A stretch of 64,000 nucleotides of DNA from Candidatus Bathyarchaeota archaeon (GTDB lineage: Archaea > Thermoproteota > Bathyarchaeia > Bathyarchaeales > Bathycorpusculaceae). Made by a program: the position numbers and the translations under genes. Below the pieces are notes generated by a model. The model had not been told where the DNA came from. It saw only the letters and a program-made list of their open reading frames with translations, and did not search any database. Shown here piece by piece: positions 47,114 to 51,884 of this stretch. Positions within the stretch are counted from its first letter, which is position 1, and the number at the start of each line of letters is the position of its first letter. The stretch spans positions 496,001 to 560,000 of the forward strand of contig JAOZHT010000001.1 in NCBI GenBank assembly GCA_026014735.1, in the 5' to 3' direction.

Positions 47114-47200
47114 GCGGGATTCCCCAAGCCTGGTATGGGGCAGGCCTGCTAAGTCTGTGGTCGAAAGGCCGCGTGGGTTCAATTCCCACATCCCGCGCCA
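47114..47200 (+). tRNA. tRNA-Ser (anticodon GCT), CCA encoded
   Basis: Acceptor GCGGGAT pairs with ATCCCGC (47190-47196), discriminator G, CCA at 47198-47200. D stem CCCC/GGGG, anticodon stem CAGGC/GTCTG with loop CTGCTAA (anticodon GCT), long variable arm GGTC-GAAA-GGCC and T arm GTGGG-TTCAATT-CCCAC. All class II features are intact. Bases 47115-47197 are repeated exactly at 48298-48380. Confidence 0.95.
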
Positions 47201-47213
47201 CACTTATTTTAAG

Positions 47214-47243
47214 GGTGACTACAACCTGGAAAATGTAGTCACC
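47214..47243. terminator. Inverted repeat between tRNA-Ser and fic
   Basis: GGTGACTACA-N10-TGTAGTCACC is a perfect 10-bp inverted repeat between the 3' ends of tRNA-Ser and the fic gene. It could end transcripts from both sides or be a binding site, since the same GGTGACTACAA word occurs twice before fic. Confidence 0.5.
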
Positions 47244-47248
47244 TCGCC

Positions 47249-48187
47249 TCACTTTAGTATCCCTTTGAGTGCCCTATACTCTTTGAGAATCAAATCCAAG
47301 GTCGGGCGCAGGTCGTGGGCTTTCTCGTAGGCCTGCAACGCAGCATAGTATTCTCTTCTATTTCGAAGTTCTATGTTGAGGGGCGGAAGGTTATGTTTCA
47401 GCAGAATGTTGTTTAGCAAAATTCTACCCACTCTTCCGTTTCCATCTTGAAAAGGATGAATCATTTCGAATTGGTTGTGGACTACGGCGGCTAAAACAAG
47501 TGGCGGATACTCTGTCTTATTGTCGTTGTACCACTGTGTAAGCTCTTGAAGCATTCCTGGGACTAATTCGGCGGGGGCGCCGCGGTGTATCACGTTTCCA
47601 TAGGCATCGGCAACCACCACTTCGACGCCTTTTTTTCTGAACCTGCCTGCGAAAGGCTTTGAATTCTTGAAAACTATGCGATGGATATCTTTTATAAGCC
47701 CAGGCGAGATGCGCTCTTCTGTTGCTCGGATGTAATCTATTGCTTCTGATACGCCGTAGGTTTCGGCTATGTCTTCTTTGCTTTTGCCTTCAGGCCATTT
47801 ATCTTCTCTTAGAATATCTCGGACTTCTTTTGACTCGATGTAGGAGCCTTCTATAGCGTTGGTGTTGTAGGTGAAGGCTTCTTTGAATTTGTCCCAGTCC
47901 AGGTCTGAGAGGTGGAGTACTTGAAGTTCCCCGTGTGCTTGAAGCGTCTGCAGTTCTTCACATTCCATGGGGGAAAGGGCGGTAAAGTAGGGGTCACTTA
48001 TGGCGCGGGCTGATCTGATTTTCTCTTTTAATTTTGCTTCGGCGGTAGCTCTCTTTAGTTCAATTTCCTGCGGTGTAAGGTTCATCCCTAAGTAAACGCT
48101 GGCTTTTTTTACTTTTTTTCCAGCTCGATAAGAATGTGCTAGATAAAACTTTTTTTGGCTATTTTTTTGTCTTGTTTCTATGTGCAC
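47249..48187 (-). CDS. fic: Fic-domain protein (AMP transferase), class II
   Basis: A 312-aa Fic protein. The active motif VHNQFEMIHPFQDGNGRVGR is complete (HPFxxGNGRxxR), and an inhibitory helix of the form S/T-x3-E-G is seen in YNTNAIEGS near residue 110, upstream of the Fic core, so it is a self-restrained class II enzyme that would transfer AMP or a similar group to a target protein. A C-terminal helical tail is present. It starts with GTG at 48187. It lies between two identical tRNA-Ser segments, suggesting a small mobile cassette. Confidence 0.9.
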   Translation of the reverse strand: MHIETRQKNSQKKFYLAHSYRAGKKVKKASVYLGMNLTPQEIELKRATAEAKLKEKIRSARAISDPYFTALSPMECEELQTLQAHGELQVLHLSDLDWDKFKEAFTYNTNAIEGSYIESKEVRDILREDKWPEGKSKEDIAETYGVSEAIDYIRATEERISPGLIKDIHRIVFKNSKPFAGRFRKKGVEVVVADAYGNVIHRGAPAELVPGMLQELTQWYNDNKTEYPPLVLAAVVHNQFEMIHPFQDGNGRVGRILLNNILLKHNLPPLNIELRNRREYYAALQAYEKAHDLRPTLDLILKEYRALKGILK

Positions 48188-48199
48188 AACTATTTAATG

Positions 48200-48241
48200 G
48201 GTGACTACAAACCTTAAGTTTTTCGGTAGCGGTGACTACAA
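48200..48241. promoter_or_regulatory. Two direct repeats upstream of fic (possible operators)
   Basis: GGTGACTACAA occurs at 48200-48210 and 48231-48241, 31 bp apart (about three helical turns), 13 and 44 bp before the fic start. Read on the fic strand the word is TTGTAGTCACC. A third copy is part of the inverted repeat behind fic. It fits an autoregulatory site. Confidence 0.5.
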
Positions 48242-48297
48242 TTAAGAAGTGCCAACCGCAGGCGCAGCTTAACCCCCCATAACAAAATAGGCGGCTC

Positions 48298-48380
48298 CGG
48301 GATTCCCCAAGCCTGGTATGGGGCAGGCCTGCTAAGTCTGTGGTCGAAAGGCCGCGTGGGTTCAATTCCCACATCCCGCG
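48298..48380 (+). repeat. 83-bp perfect copy of tRNA-Ser
   Basis: Identical to 47115-47197. The copy lacks base 1 (C instead of G, which mispairs with position 72) and the CCA end (GAGCCA follows instead of GCCA), so it is not expected to be a normal tRNA. Together with the real gene it brackets fic in direct orientation, like attL/attR of a tRNA-integrated element. Confidence 0.8.
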
Positions 48381-48503
48381 AGCCAACCCCTGATTTTTAT
48401 TGTTTTACGAAGCAGTTCTTCCCTCAAGATTATACGAACCCCATAGGCTGCAATTCTTTAGAAAATCTTAAAAAGAAAACACGCACATAAGCAAGCGATT
48501 GCG

Positions 48504-49841
48504 ATGAAGAAACTAATTCACGTCATCACCATAATCTTTTTAGTATCGGCTATTTCAAGTTGTTTTTTGGTTACTTCACAAGCGGATACTGCTAATTGGT
48601 GGGATTCTTCATGGCAGTACAGAAGGCAAGTTACAATTTCTGAGCAAAGTAAAAATACTTTGAATCAATTCCCAATTTCCATAACTTTTGACAACCCAGG
48701 AAAAATTCAGGCTAACGGAAGTGATATTAGAATTGTTGATAGTAAGAACACGGAGATTCCATTTTCTATAGAAACTTTCGACCTGAATTCTGCAACCATC
48801 CTGTTGAATATTGATCTAAGTGCTCAGGAATCCAAGGCGATTTACATTTATTATGGAAATCCAGAAGCTGAAGCCCCAAATTATCCCTTGATACCCTTAC
48901 AAATTGATGAGGGTAAAACTGGCAATGCAACAATAGATAACAGCCTATTCATAGGGTGGAATAAGGTACCCTAAGGAGTCAATCCTGGAAATTACTACGT
49001 AAATAATGAAATAGTACATTGGGAGGAGGTTTACATTGAGAATAACGCCGTTACCCTTTGGACTGACTTCAAGGTGGAACAGAGCGAAGATTTGTTAACG
49101 AATTATGACCAATGGATAGGAGGAATTGGGCGCTCTCATGTGGATTTAGGCAATTTTGTTGAACGCTCATATGGACTAGGAGATTATCAGACTTATGTAA
49201 GGACGCCTAACTATGTGGATTTAGTTTTTGCAGATGCTACACTCAGAGTCTATAAAGGACAAAATTTTGTAGAAACTACCCAAGCAGACCGGATGCAGGT
49301 AGAAGCAAATACATGGGATTACCCCAACTATAAAGGGTCAACAGAACAGAACATCATTGACGCAGCAAACACTAATGGGCCCTCAAATGACCGAACTTGG
49401 AACATAATTTACAGTTCGAAAACTAACCCGGGGTGGATGGCTTTTAGAAATAGCATTAATGGATATATTCTTGGCGGAATAGGGTTCAAAGTAGACCCAA
49501 CTTATCAATTTCATTTTGCCGCAAAGGAATCACATGCCTTCGACAGACAGATATTCTTTGACCATACAAACTCACAAACACAAAGCCCCAACAACCAGCC
49601 CTCTTCATGTAAAATCTATTGGTATGCTGATACCTCAAACGCATATTCAAACATTAATACAGTAGCAGCAATCTTAGGCAAGCCACCGCAGGTCTCGGTG
49701 CTTCAAGAAGAGATAATCCAAAGTGTACCTAGCCCAACAATCCCAGAATTCCCGACAATAACACTTATTGCAGGAATGATGATAGCTTGCTCAGCTAGTG
49801 CATTGATGCTGAAAAGAAGACACAATGCAACTTTGGCTTAA
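48504..49841 (+). pseudogene. DUF2341 surface protein with in-frame TAA
   Basis: One frame from ATG 48504 to 49841 encodes 445 codons with a single TAA at 48972-48974. Before it: a signal peptide and WWDSSWQYRRQVTISEQ, the start of a DUF2341 domain; after it the same frame continues with PGNYYVNNEIVHWEEVY and ends in a C-terminal anchor (IPEFPTITLIAGMMIACSA then KRRHNATLA). PEFP before a helix is typical for surface sorting in archaea. The TAA may be a nonsense mutation, readthrough site or error. Hairpin CACTATT-CTG-AATAGTG follows. Confidence 0.65.
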
Positions 49842-50168: not shown

Positions 50169-51884
50169 TTAGGATTCGAGGGCTTTTTCTGAGGCATGGG
50201 CGTATGTTGGAGCGAATTTCTTCACCAGATCCTTAGGCGTATAGATGCTTGAGTGGAGATGGAAAAAGTTGCCCATACGCTCGGTTTCCACGCCGATGCC
50301 TAGGACAATCACGTTTTTGCGCACCAAATCATCGATGGTTTCTTTAAGTGCAATCGGCATGTTGGCGTATCCATAGGGCCACCCGTCAGATATCACCACC
50401 AGCACCCGCTGCTCCTCAAAGCGTTTCGCCAGCATTTTTCCCGCTATAGTTATGGCGTCGGGAATGTAGGTTAACCCCTCGAACCGTAATCCACCGATGC
50501 GGGCACGCACACGCTTCGAATACGACTCGTTACTGTCCTTAAGTACATAGAAGCGGTCGCTGAAGGCAAAAAACGTCCAGGAAGTCGGGTCAGTCATAAG
50601 TTCCCGAGCTGCCTCCGCAACCGCAATCGCTAATCCCCGGCCGAATTCGCCTCTCACCTGCATGCTGTTGGAGACATCGAATAGAAGAGACCAGGCAAAA
50701 CTCGGATGCAGAAACTCGTCGAGGTTAAACACGTCGGTGGCGGGTTTGTTTGCAGCTAAAGACTGGATGACTGCGGCTAAGTCAAGCTGCCCCATCTCTT
50801 GGCGGGGGTCCTCATCGAGGTAATTGTAGGCTGAACGCAGAATATCCAGCACTCGCCTGCTGGTTCCTTGGATGTGGACTTTGGCGCGTAGGTACTGGGT
50901 GTAATCTTCCTCGGGGATGCTGATGCCTCGGAAACGGGTAAGCTCCAGGTAGGGCATGATTTTGGAGATGATCTTTTCTTCCCGTTGCTTTTGGTAACGG
51001 TCAGAATTAAACGCCTGCAGCGCCTCTGCTTCCTGCTCAGGACGCCACAGCTGCTCAATATGGTCAACCGAGGGCACGTCGCCGCCAAGAGCCATAAGCG
51101 ACTGCACAAACAAGCCCTCAAAATCCTCAACGCCGGCTTCAACATCGCTGTAGATGCTGCATCGCCCTAAACTTTCCGTATGCTTAAACGAGGGCGCCTC
51201 CAGAAAAGGACCAAAAGGCTCCAGTGCCTCCTTAATCGCCTTCACTTTCTCATCGAATAAATCATCCAGTTTGATGTCCTCGCCGCCAATCGACATCATA
51301 AACGTCTCCTTAAGAGCCAACAAATCAGCATGCAGCTCACCCACAACCTTCTCTGCTTCTGCACCCGGGGAACCCTTAAAGGCGCCAACGTTAAGCTGAC
51401 TTAACAGCGCAGACATCAACTTCGTGGAGACGGTGAAGATGCGTTCTGAGGCCTTTACTTTCTGGTAGGCATGTGCGTTTGCATATGCTAAGTCAAAGAA
51501 GCGGTCAGGGTACCATGCTTGAATGTAGGCGTTGGTGTAGACGTCGTTAACTATGGATTTTGCGTATGCCTCCAGTATGCCGTCGTTTAGGTTGGGGACA
51601 ACGCGGCTTTTGGAGAACGGCGCCAAGGTATGGGTGGTTAAATGCATAACCGCTGCACGAAAAACGCGTCCAACCCGGGATTTGCCGGTGCTATCACCGC
51701 TGAATTTGAGGCCTAAAAACGCTATCGTGCCATCCTCCTGCATATGGACGGGCGGAAGCTTTATGGTGAAGCCAACAGCATCGCCAAGCAGAACCGGCTG
51801 CTCAATGGCGGGGTCATGGATTATTTTTACTTTGGTGTTGTCTTTCTGCAGGGAAGTCGCCCAAGCATAATCGATAAAACCCAA
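50169..51884 (-). CDS. VWA-domain protein partnered with MoxR ATPase
   Basis: A 571-aa protein. The C-terminal 190 residues form a von Willebrand A domain with a metal site FDVSNSMQVRG (DxSxS) and ISDGWPYG. The N-terminal part is helical without known motif. VWA proteins paired with MoxR ATPases act in enzyme maturation or metal insertion. It lies 14 nt after the MoxR gene, same strand, so the two are surely co-expressed. Confidence 0.9.
   Translation of the reverse strand: MGFIDYAWATSLQKDNTKVKIIHDPAIEQPVLLGDAVGFTIKLPPVHMQEDGTIAFLGLKFSGDSTGKSRVGRVFRAAVMHLTTHTLAPFSKSRVVPNLNDGILEAYAKSIVNDVYTNAYIQAWYPDRFFDLAYANAHAYQKVKASERIFTVSTKLMSALLSQLNVGAFKGSPGAEAEKVVGELHADLLALKETFMMSIGGEDIKLDDLFDEKVKAIKEALEPFGPFLEAPSFKHTESLGRCSIYSDVEAGVEDFEGLFVQSLMALGGDVPSVDHIEQLWRPEQEAEALQAFNSDRYQKQREEKIISKIMPYLELTRFRGISIPEEDYTQYLRAKVHIQGTSRRVLDILRSAYNYLDEDPRQEMGQLDLAAVIQSLAANKPATDVFNLDEFLHPSFAWSLLFDVSNSMQVRGEFGRGLAIAVAEAARELMTDPTSWTFFAFSDRFYVLKDSNESYSKRVRARIGGLRFEGLTYIPDAITIAGKMLAKRFEEQRVLVVISDGWPYGYANMPIALKETIDDLVRKNVIVLGIGVETERMGNFFHLHSSIYTPKDLVKKFAPTYAHASEKALES

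Follow-up and report, generated by a model that had tools for sequence, protein, structure and literature searches.

The window, a stretch of 64,000 nucleotides from a Candidatus Bathyarchaeota genome, contains a fic gene enclosed by two copies of the same tRNA gene, and the question that it raises is how fic came to lie there and what its product does. The reading that we favor, with a probability of about 0.6, is that of an accessory and self-contained fic module settled in a tRNA-Ser(GCT) hotspot, with Fic repressing itself through a transposase-type domain. The features of the locus are collected in Table 1.

Table 1. Features of the fic locus (positions in the window).
Feature	Position	Strand	Basis
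attL-like copy: intact tRNA-Ser(GCT), CCA encoded	47114..47200	+	ARAGORN
Inverted half-site pair GGTGACTACA / TGTAGTCACC, just past the stop codon of fic; at the RNA level also a hairpin	47214..47243	.	
fic, 312 aa, GTG start, class II self-inhibited Fic/AMPylase-type, FicA subfamily	47249..48187	-	PF02661, E 2.4e-21
Fic catalytic motif HPFQDGNGR, residues 244-252	47432..47458	-	alignment
Class II inhibitory motif [S/T]xxxE[G/N]; T109-G114, TNAIEG	47846..47863	-	alignment
N-terminal DNA-binding-type domain (predicted), residues 1-38, three strands, followed by helix 39-60	48074..48187	-	AF2, hhalign
Proximal promoter half-site TTGTAGTCACC, forming a direct repeat with the distal half-site at a spacing of 31 bp	48200..48210	-	
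Distal promoter half-site TTGTAGTCACC	48231..48241	-	
Second tRNA-Ser(GCT) copy plus 5-bp acceptor-stem extension	48293..48384	+	RNA fold
Second tRNA-Ser(GCT) copy, attR-like; bases 2-84 identical, base 1 = C	48298..48380	+	

Both copies are called as tRNA-Ser(gct) on the plus strand by ARAGORN (47114-47200 and 48296-48381). The original prediction of an exact repeat holds: bases 2 to 84 of the tRNA recur in the same direction at 83 of 83 positions, with 1183 bp from start to start (BLAST E value, 1.9e-34), and fic, a single PF02661 gene on the minus strand, is the only gene inside. The repeat is the sole relic of its kind within the 18-kb neighborhood, and a whole-genome scan found matches to the tRNA-Ser(GCT) sequence at these two places only. 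In copy 2, base 1 is C instead of G, and the discriminator is not directly followed by CCA. The flanking bases differ between the copies while the tRNA body is identical, and in a 93-nt frame that takes in 9 to 10 upstream bases the identity is 97%. Copy 2 folds as a cloverleaf with five added acceptor pairs, in which GGCTC (48293-48297) pairs with GAGCC (48380-48384) and C48379 is bulged, an extension that could be due to chance. That the exact identity speaks for a recent event, as had been suggested, is weakly founded, the tRNA being conserved anyway; the intact tRNA-Ser(GCT) of the window is 100% identical in G007, G009, G013, and G022. Beside copy 2 lies a gene for a DUF2341-type secreted protein (48504-49841), seemingly split by an in-frame TAA (48972-48974) into two open reading frames of 156 and 255 aa in the same frame.

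A direct tRNA repeat at both ends with the intact tRNA on one side is the layout of a tRNA-integrated element, and in archaeal elements of this type the repeat likewise brackets accessory genes (PMC6563490). Unlike in those elements, the repeat of the window takes in more than the 3' end of the tRNA, and the unit is of ~1.1 kb with one gene and without integrase; its 83 bp also exceed the range of 29 to 69 bp quoted for the att sites of crenarchaeal elements (PMC6563490). The absence of an integrase, already noted in the original prediction, applies both between the repeats and beside them; in a tyrosine-integrase element, the integrase would be encoded inside. An integrase aimed at tRNA-Ser from elsewhere in the genome had also been envisaged, and none of the three genes matching Phage_integrase (PF00589), all located elsewhere, is at tRNA-Ser. 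Also in this genome, a tyrosine recombinase (PF00589; L181:1053-2661) faces a tRNA-Leu(TAG) and is likely part of an integrated element.

Among the 32 congeneric genomes searched, fic adjoins tRNA-Ser(GCT) in six (G000, G005, G009, G022, G011, and G016, the last one placed by inference across contig ends), and in all six it points at the tRNA. It lies directly behind the tRNA in G005 (with two fic genes), G022, and G011, with one further gene in between in G009. A copy or relic of the tRNA is found behind the fic promoter in five of the six, covering bases 38 to 69 in G005 (at the contig end), 29 to 69 in G009, and 17 to 87 in G022, and decayed in G016. No strong relics (at least 85%) were seen in the fic-free congeners within contig reach. 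Both Fic subfamilies, FicA and FicB, occur at this slot. In the closest pair of genomes, G022 and G013 (RpoB identity, 97.8%), the upstream PNPOx gene and a downstream gene are common and the contents between them differ, with G013 carrying a fic of the same subfamily at a tRNA-Val instead. The six occurrences, the five copies or relics, the two subfamilies, and the different contents of this pair bear out a recurrent insertion slot.

Around the same slot, the locus of G005 (L100) has FicA and FicB both between tRNA-Ser and its relic. Second fic genes nearby were found in this locus and in L122, L126, L142, and L173, and the fic of G009 (L104, 636-1570) seems to be frameshifted in its metagenome contig. 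In fic-free relatives, the recurrent genes behind tRNA-Ser resemble, as judged by eye, those for DegP-type proteases and proteasome subunits, not integrases.

Most congeners have tRNA-Ser without fic, and the downstream flank of the window has no counterpart beside tRNA-Ser in the relatives. Neither a search by way of the downstream VWA gene (50169-51884) nor a translated comparison gave an empty site with colinear flanks for this genome. The proposal of an integrated mini-element with fic as cargo is supported only in part: its tRNA slot is recurrent, while neither an integrase nor a circular form nor a clean empty site backs it for this genome, and 83 bp is long for an att site.

A less likely alternative is a stable duplication, in which a local duplication gave two tRNA-Ser copies, gene conversion or selection preserved their identity, and fic is a resident gene that lies between them by chance and was inherited vertically with losses. 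Within the genus, Fic identities are 68 to 76% at 93 to 95% RpoB identity, which is compatible with vertical descent plus losses, and a local duplication would also suit a copy that covers the tRNA from base 2 up to the discriminator, beyond the mere 3' end and longer than typical archaeal att sites, with an identical body between differing flanks. Against this, fic is patchily present and belongs to two subfamilies at the same tRNA, the copies are decayed in other genomes, strong relics occur only with fic, and G013 has the same subfamily at another tRNA gene. Two Fic subfamilies and a variable slot thus point to a patchy tRNA hotspot, not to a stable duplication.

The enrichment of fic beside other tRNA genes across archaeal phyla also argues against the duplication. 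We found about 80 Fic homologues, in Bathyarchaeia, Micrarchaeota, Woesearchaeota, and others. A tRNA lies at most 150 bp upstream of fic in 7 of 77 loci (some of them mutually related) versus 4 of 476 control open reading frames (P = 1.6e-4), and over 80 loci from several archaeal phyla the density of tRNA genes upstream of fic declines with distance from 0.60/kb to 0.014/kb. At two loci, the first promoter site starts 1 bp (L140) and 7 bp (L115) past the tRNA. The association with tRNA genes supports a tRNA-linked insertion habit of fic, which in itself does not prove mobility, and far-side tRNA repeats are absent in most of the DPANN fic loci. Since viral contigs gave one full-length Fic relative only (L202), fic does not appear to be a common viral cargo.

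Two FicB loci have further tRNA pieces. Upstream of the FicB of L167 (1878-2177) there are a 29-nt 5' piece of tRNA-Glu, a whole tRNA-Glu, and a 17-nt 3' piece that ends 2 to 3 bp ahead of the operator. In L165, FicB and what looks by eye like a small antitoxin-like/RelE-like pair are flanked on one side by a tRNA-Asp with a putative intron and on the other by 12 bp that repeat the 3' end of this tRNA.

The product of fic has the core of class II Fic proteins: it matches PF02661 above the cut-off, its catalytic motif fits HPFx[D/E]GN[G/K]R, with nearly all positions invariant in the Fic alignment, and its AF2 model (pLDDT of 87.9) has FICD, BT_2513, and the Clostridioides difficile Fic as top structural matches. 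As in these three proteins, an inhibitory helix lies ahead of the catalytic motif; their sequence matches stop short of the N-terminal domain of the window Fic. The class II inhibitory motif is located N-terminal to the Fic core (T109, E113, and G114), and E113 and G114 are invariant across the 78 aligned Fic proteins. In class II Fic proteins, this motif keeps the AMPylase off, and the window Fic should be held off in the same way. The inhibitory motif sits in Fic itself, and there is no separate antitoxin gene in the module. Membership in the type II toxin-antitoxin systems (FicTA/Doc-Phd) was considered and rejected, as the module has no second gene.

The fic gene is accompanied by short repeated sites at both ends. 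GGTGACTACA has 8 exact copies in the 2.9-Mb genome, 4 of them within this 1.03 kb, where the original prediction did not mention them, and the pair past the stop codon forms a hairpin of -16 kcal/mol (z score of -4.4; RNA fold). In FicA relatives, TGTAGTCACC-type repeats precede the start codon, and most also have an inverted pair where the gene stops; FicB relatives have TACCATTACA/TGTAATGGTA on either side of the TATA box and mostly no 3' pair. The TATA-like stretch between the promoter sites is poor in the window. With a criterion that presets no motif (a pair of 10-mers agreeing in at least 9 positions), paired sites were found in 70 of 79 fic promoters versus 17 of 492 control windows farther upstream, so that a widely spaced repeated operator at its own promoter, of the kind known from the Fic autorepressor CccR, is typical of fic. 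The spacing is of ~31 bp in FicA and 40 to 44 bp in FicB, near three and four helical turns. Two FicB genes (L140 and L158) have sites of B type at the promoter but, at the stop codon, an inverted pair of A type.

The N-terminal domain seems to be DNA-binding, of the kind found at the front end of IS1634 transposases. AlphaFold places high-confidence strands at residues 2 to 8, 11 to 22, and 25 to 35 and a helix from residue 39. Foldseek gave no significant match and no solved DNA-binding structure for this domain, and the matches in Pfam and NCBIfam were scattered and weak, none of them convincing. When the Fic N-terminal profile was compared by hhalign with N termini of IS1634 transposases from the same class, trimmed by hand, the probability was 94% and the score 37.2, against a maximum of 13.6 over 40 column shuffles. 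As a check independent of the trimming, the Fic N-terminal profile was searched against the proteins of the genus, and its sole non-Fic matches were two IS1634 transposase N termini, both weak (E values of 9.5e-4 and 0.005). Judging from these profile comparisons, the domain is homologous to the transposase N terminus.

In IS1634 transposases, this domain probably recognizes the inner segment of the terminal repeats. In two IS1634-type elements whose terminal repeats are clear and which carry the same SYR motif (L378 and L340), the inner ends read GGGCACTACA and AACCTACA, corresponding to TGTAG in reverse, and these ends are absent in two elements without the SYR motif (L338 and L351), a comparison that is based on this small sample of four. 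In L340, the inner terminal repeat occurs a third time, close to where the transposase open reading frame starts, perhaps for self-regulation. The Fic proteins thus share with IS1634-family DDE transposases (NF033559) the N-terminal domain and, with two members, the TGTAG core of the sites, and differ from them in the lack of a transposase catalytic domain and of terminal tips around fic. Membership of fic in an IS1634 transposon was therefore discarded, Fic having the N-terminal domain only and no tips being seen around the gene.

The variable part of the half-site tracks Fic residues 17 and 28, which sit in adjacent strands of the N-terminal domain in the AlphaFold model. ATGG sites go with Q17/T28 in 36 of 36 proteins, GTCA sites with K28 in 21 of 21, GACA sites with R28 in 7 of 7, GGGG sites with E17/K28 in 5 of 5 (with five changes on the Fic-domain-only tree, in which many branches are weak), and AG-type sites with K17 or N28 in 5 of 5; 14 of the 78 class assignments were made by hand from the promoters. 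Over the full length of FicB, the nine columns with the strongest association (17, 28, 2, 6, 4, 7, 18, 20, and 14) all fall within residues 2 to 28. In FicA alone, the N-terminal columns were not enriched in the column association (MI) test, which is uninformative by itself because clade structure dominates. The independent pairs with support on the Fic-domain tree are only three, too few for significance. As the sites and the N-terminal codons are adjacent in the DNA, the association could in part be due to joint transfer. The 3' pair of FicA has the same variant as the 5' promoter pair 1 kb away, an agreement that is not easily explained by joint transfer of neighboring DNA.

It is improbable that another host regulator reads the TGTAGTCACC sites, or that the 3' pair is a mere terminator hairpin, without any binding by Fic. 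Such a role would account for the strong RNA hairpin of the 3' pair, for its absence from most FicB genes, and for the A-type 3' pairs joined to B-type promoters, but not for site variants that follow the N-terminal residues within and between subfamilies and phyla, nor for the homology of the Fic N-terminal domain to a transposase N terminus or the presence of the sites at fic in hosts from several phyla. That FicA units are themselves transposon-like, with the sites as end sequences moved in trans by IS1634-type transposases, is very improbable. In its favor are the TGTAG core and the type of domain that Fic has in common with these elements, the presence of sites at either end of FicA genes, and the scattered distribution; against it, there are no ACCTRAATTCCC-like tips and by eye no consistent target-site duplication, FicB sites are at the promoter only, and this genome has no IS1634 match. 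Mobility of fic through its own sites was discarded likewise, neither tips nor consistent target duplications having been seen.

For the accessory module that we favor, we propose the following mechanism. In the sequence, fic has an intact tRNA-Ser on one side and a nearly full copy of it on the other, the layout that an element leaves on recombining with a tRNA gene, and this layout recurs patchily, with decayed copies, in congeneric genomes. The gene may have been delivered by integration, with an integrase since lost or acting from elsewhere, and the unit would now be an integrase-less remnant or mini-cassette. There are strong indications that Fic, probably as a dimer, would bind the 10-bp sites around the promoter and at the 3' end through its N-terminal domain, with the residues around 17 and 28 reading them. 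On the model of CccR, the window Fic would most likely sit on its own sites as a dimer, occlude the promoter, and so repress its own transcription. The view of fic as mere cargo leaves out these operators, which Fic would read itself. Since the class II motif would keep the AMPylase off, one polypeptide could combine the roles of toxin, antitoxin, and repressor.

There is about an even chance that these genes constitute a new archaeal one-gene family, defined by a self-inhibited Fic with an IS1634-type end-binding domain, a residue code (17 and 28) for TGTA-core sites, autoregulation through sites a whole number of helical turns apart, a spread between DPANN archaea and Bathyarchaeia, and a tendency to settle beside tRNA genes. 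If true, archaea, tiny DPANN symbionts included, would possess a single-polypeptide counterpart of toxin-antitoxin systems, in which a transposase DNA-binding domain was recruited for regulating a Fic enzyme, and this small three-strand/helix domain would have a readable specificity code. The tRNA link offers a testable route for the spread of fic modules between archaeal phyla.

Part of this design is already known: CccR is a Fic autorepressor, and the Fic activity of CbFic2 of Coxiella burnetii is DNA-coupled (PMC10628234). In the available part of that source, CbFic2 has its Fic activity coupled to DNA binding and dimerization and, unlike the window Fic, a C-terminal HTH and a host histone target, and a paired operator at its own gene is not described (PMC10628234). 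In the open-licence literature searched, we found no precedent for an archaeal Fic that combines an N-terminal domain of transposase type with matching sites and a residue code. A precedent for autorepression is CccR of Yersinia pseudotuberculosis, a Fic protein that represses its own gene from inverted repeats of 10 bp with a 26-bp spacer (PMC9755527). Its single polypeptide joins a DNA-binding domain to a Fic domain that inhibits itself, the same combination as predicted for the window Fic, and its operator consists of two widely spaced 10-bp repeats (PMC9755527), resembling the paired sites at the fic promoter of the window. CccR, a T6SS-secreted protein, has its HTH at the C terminus (PMC9755527), whereas the window Fic is archaeal and has an N-terminal domain of three strands plus helix, of transposase type, and subfamily A, unlike CccR, also has sites at the 3' end, where Fic would bind as well. 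The window Fic is thus analogous to CccR and not a member of its group, because its domain is N-terminal instead of a C-terminal HTH.
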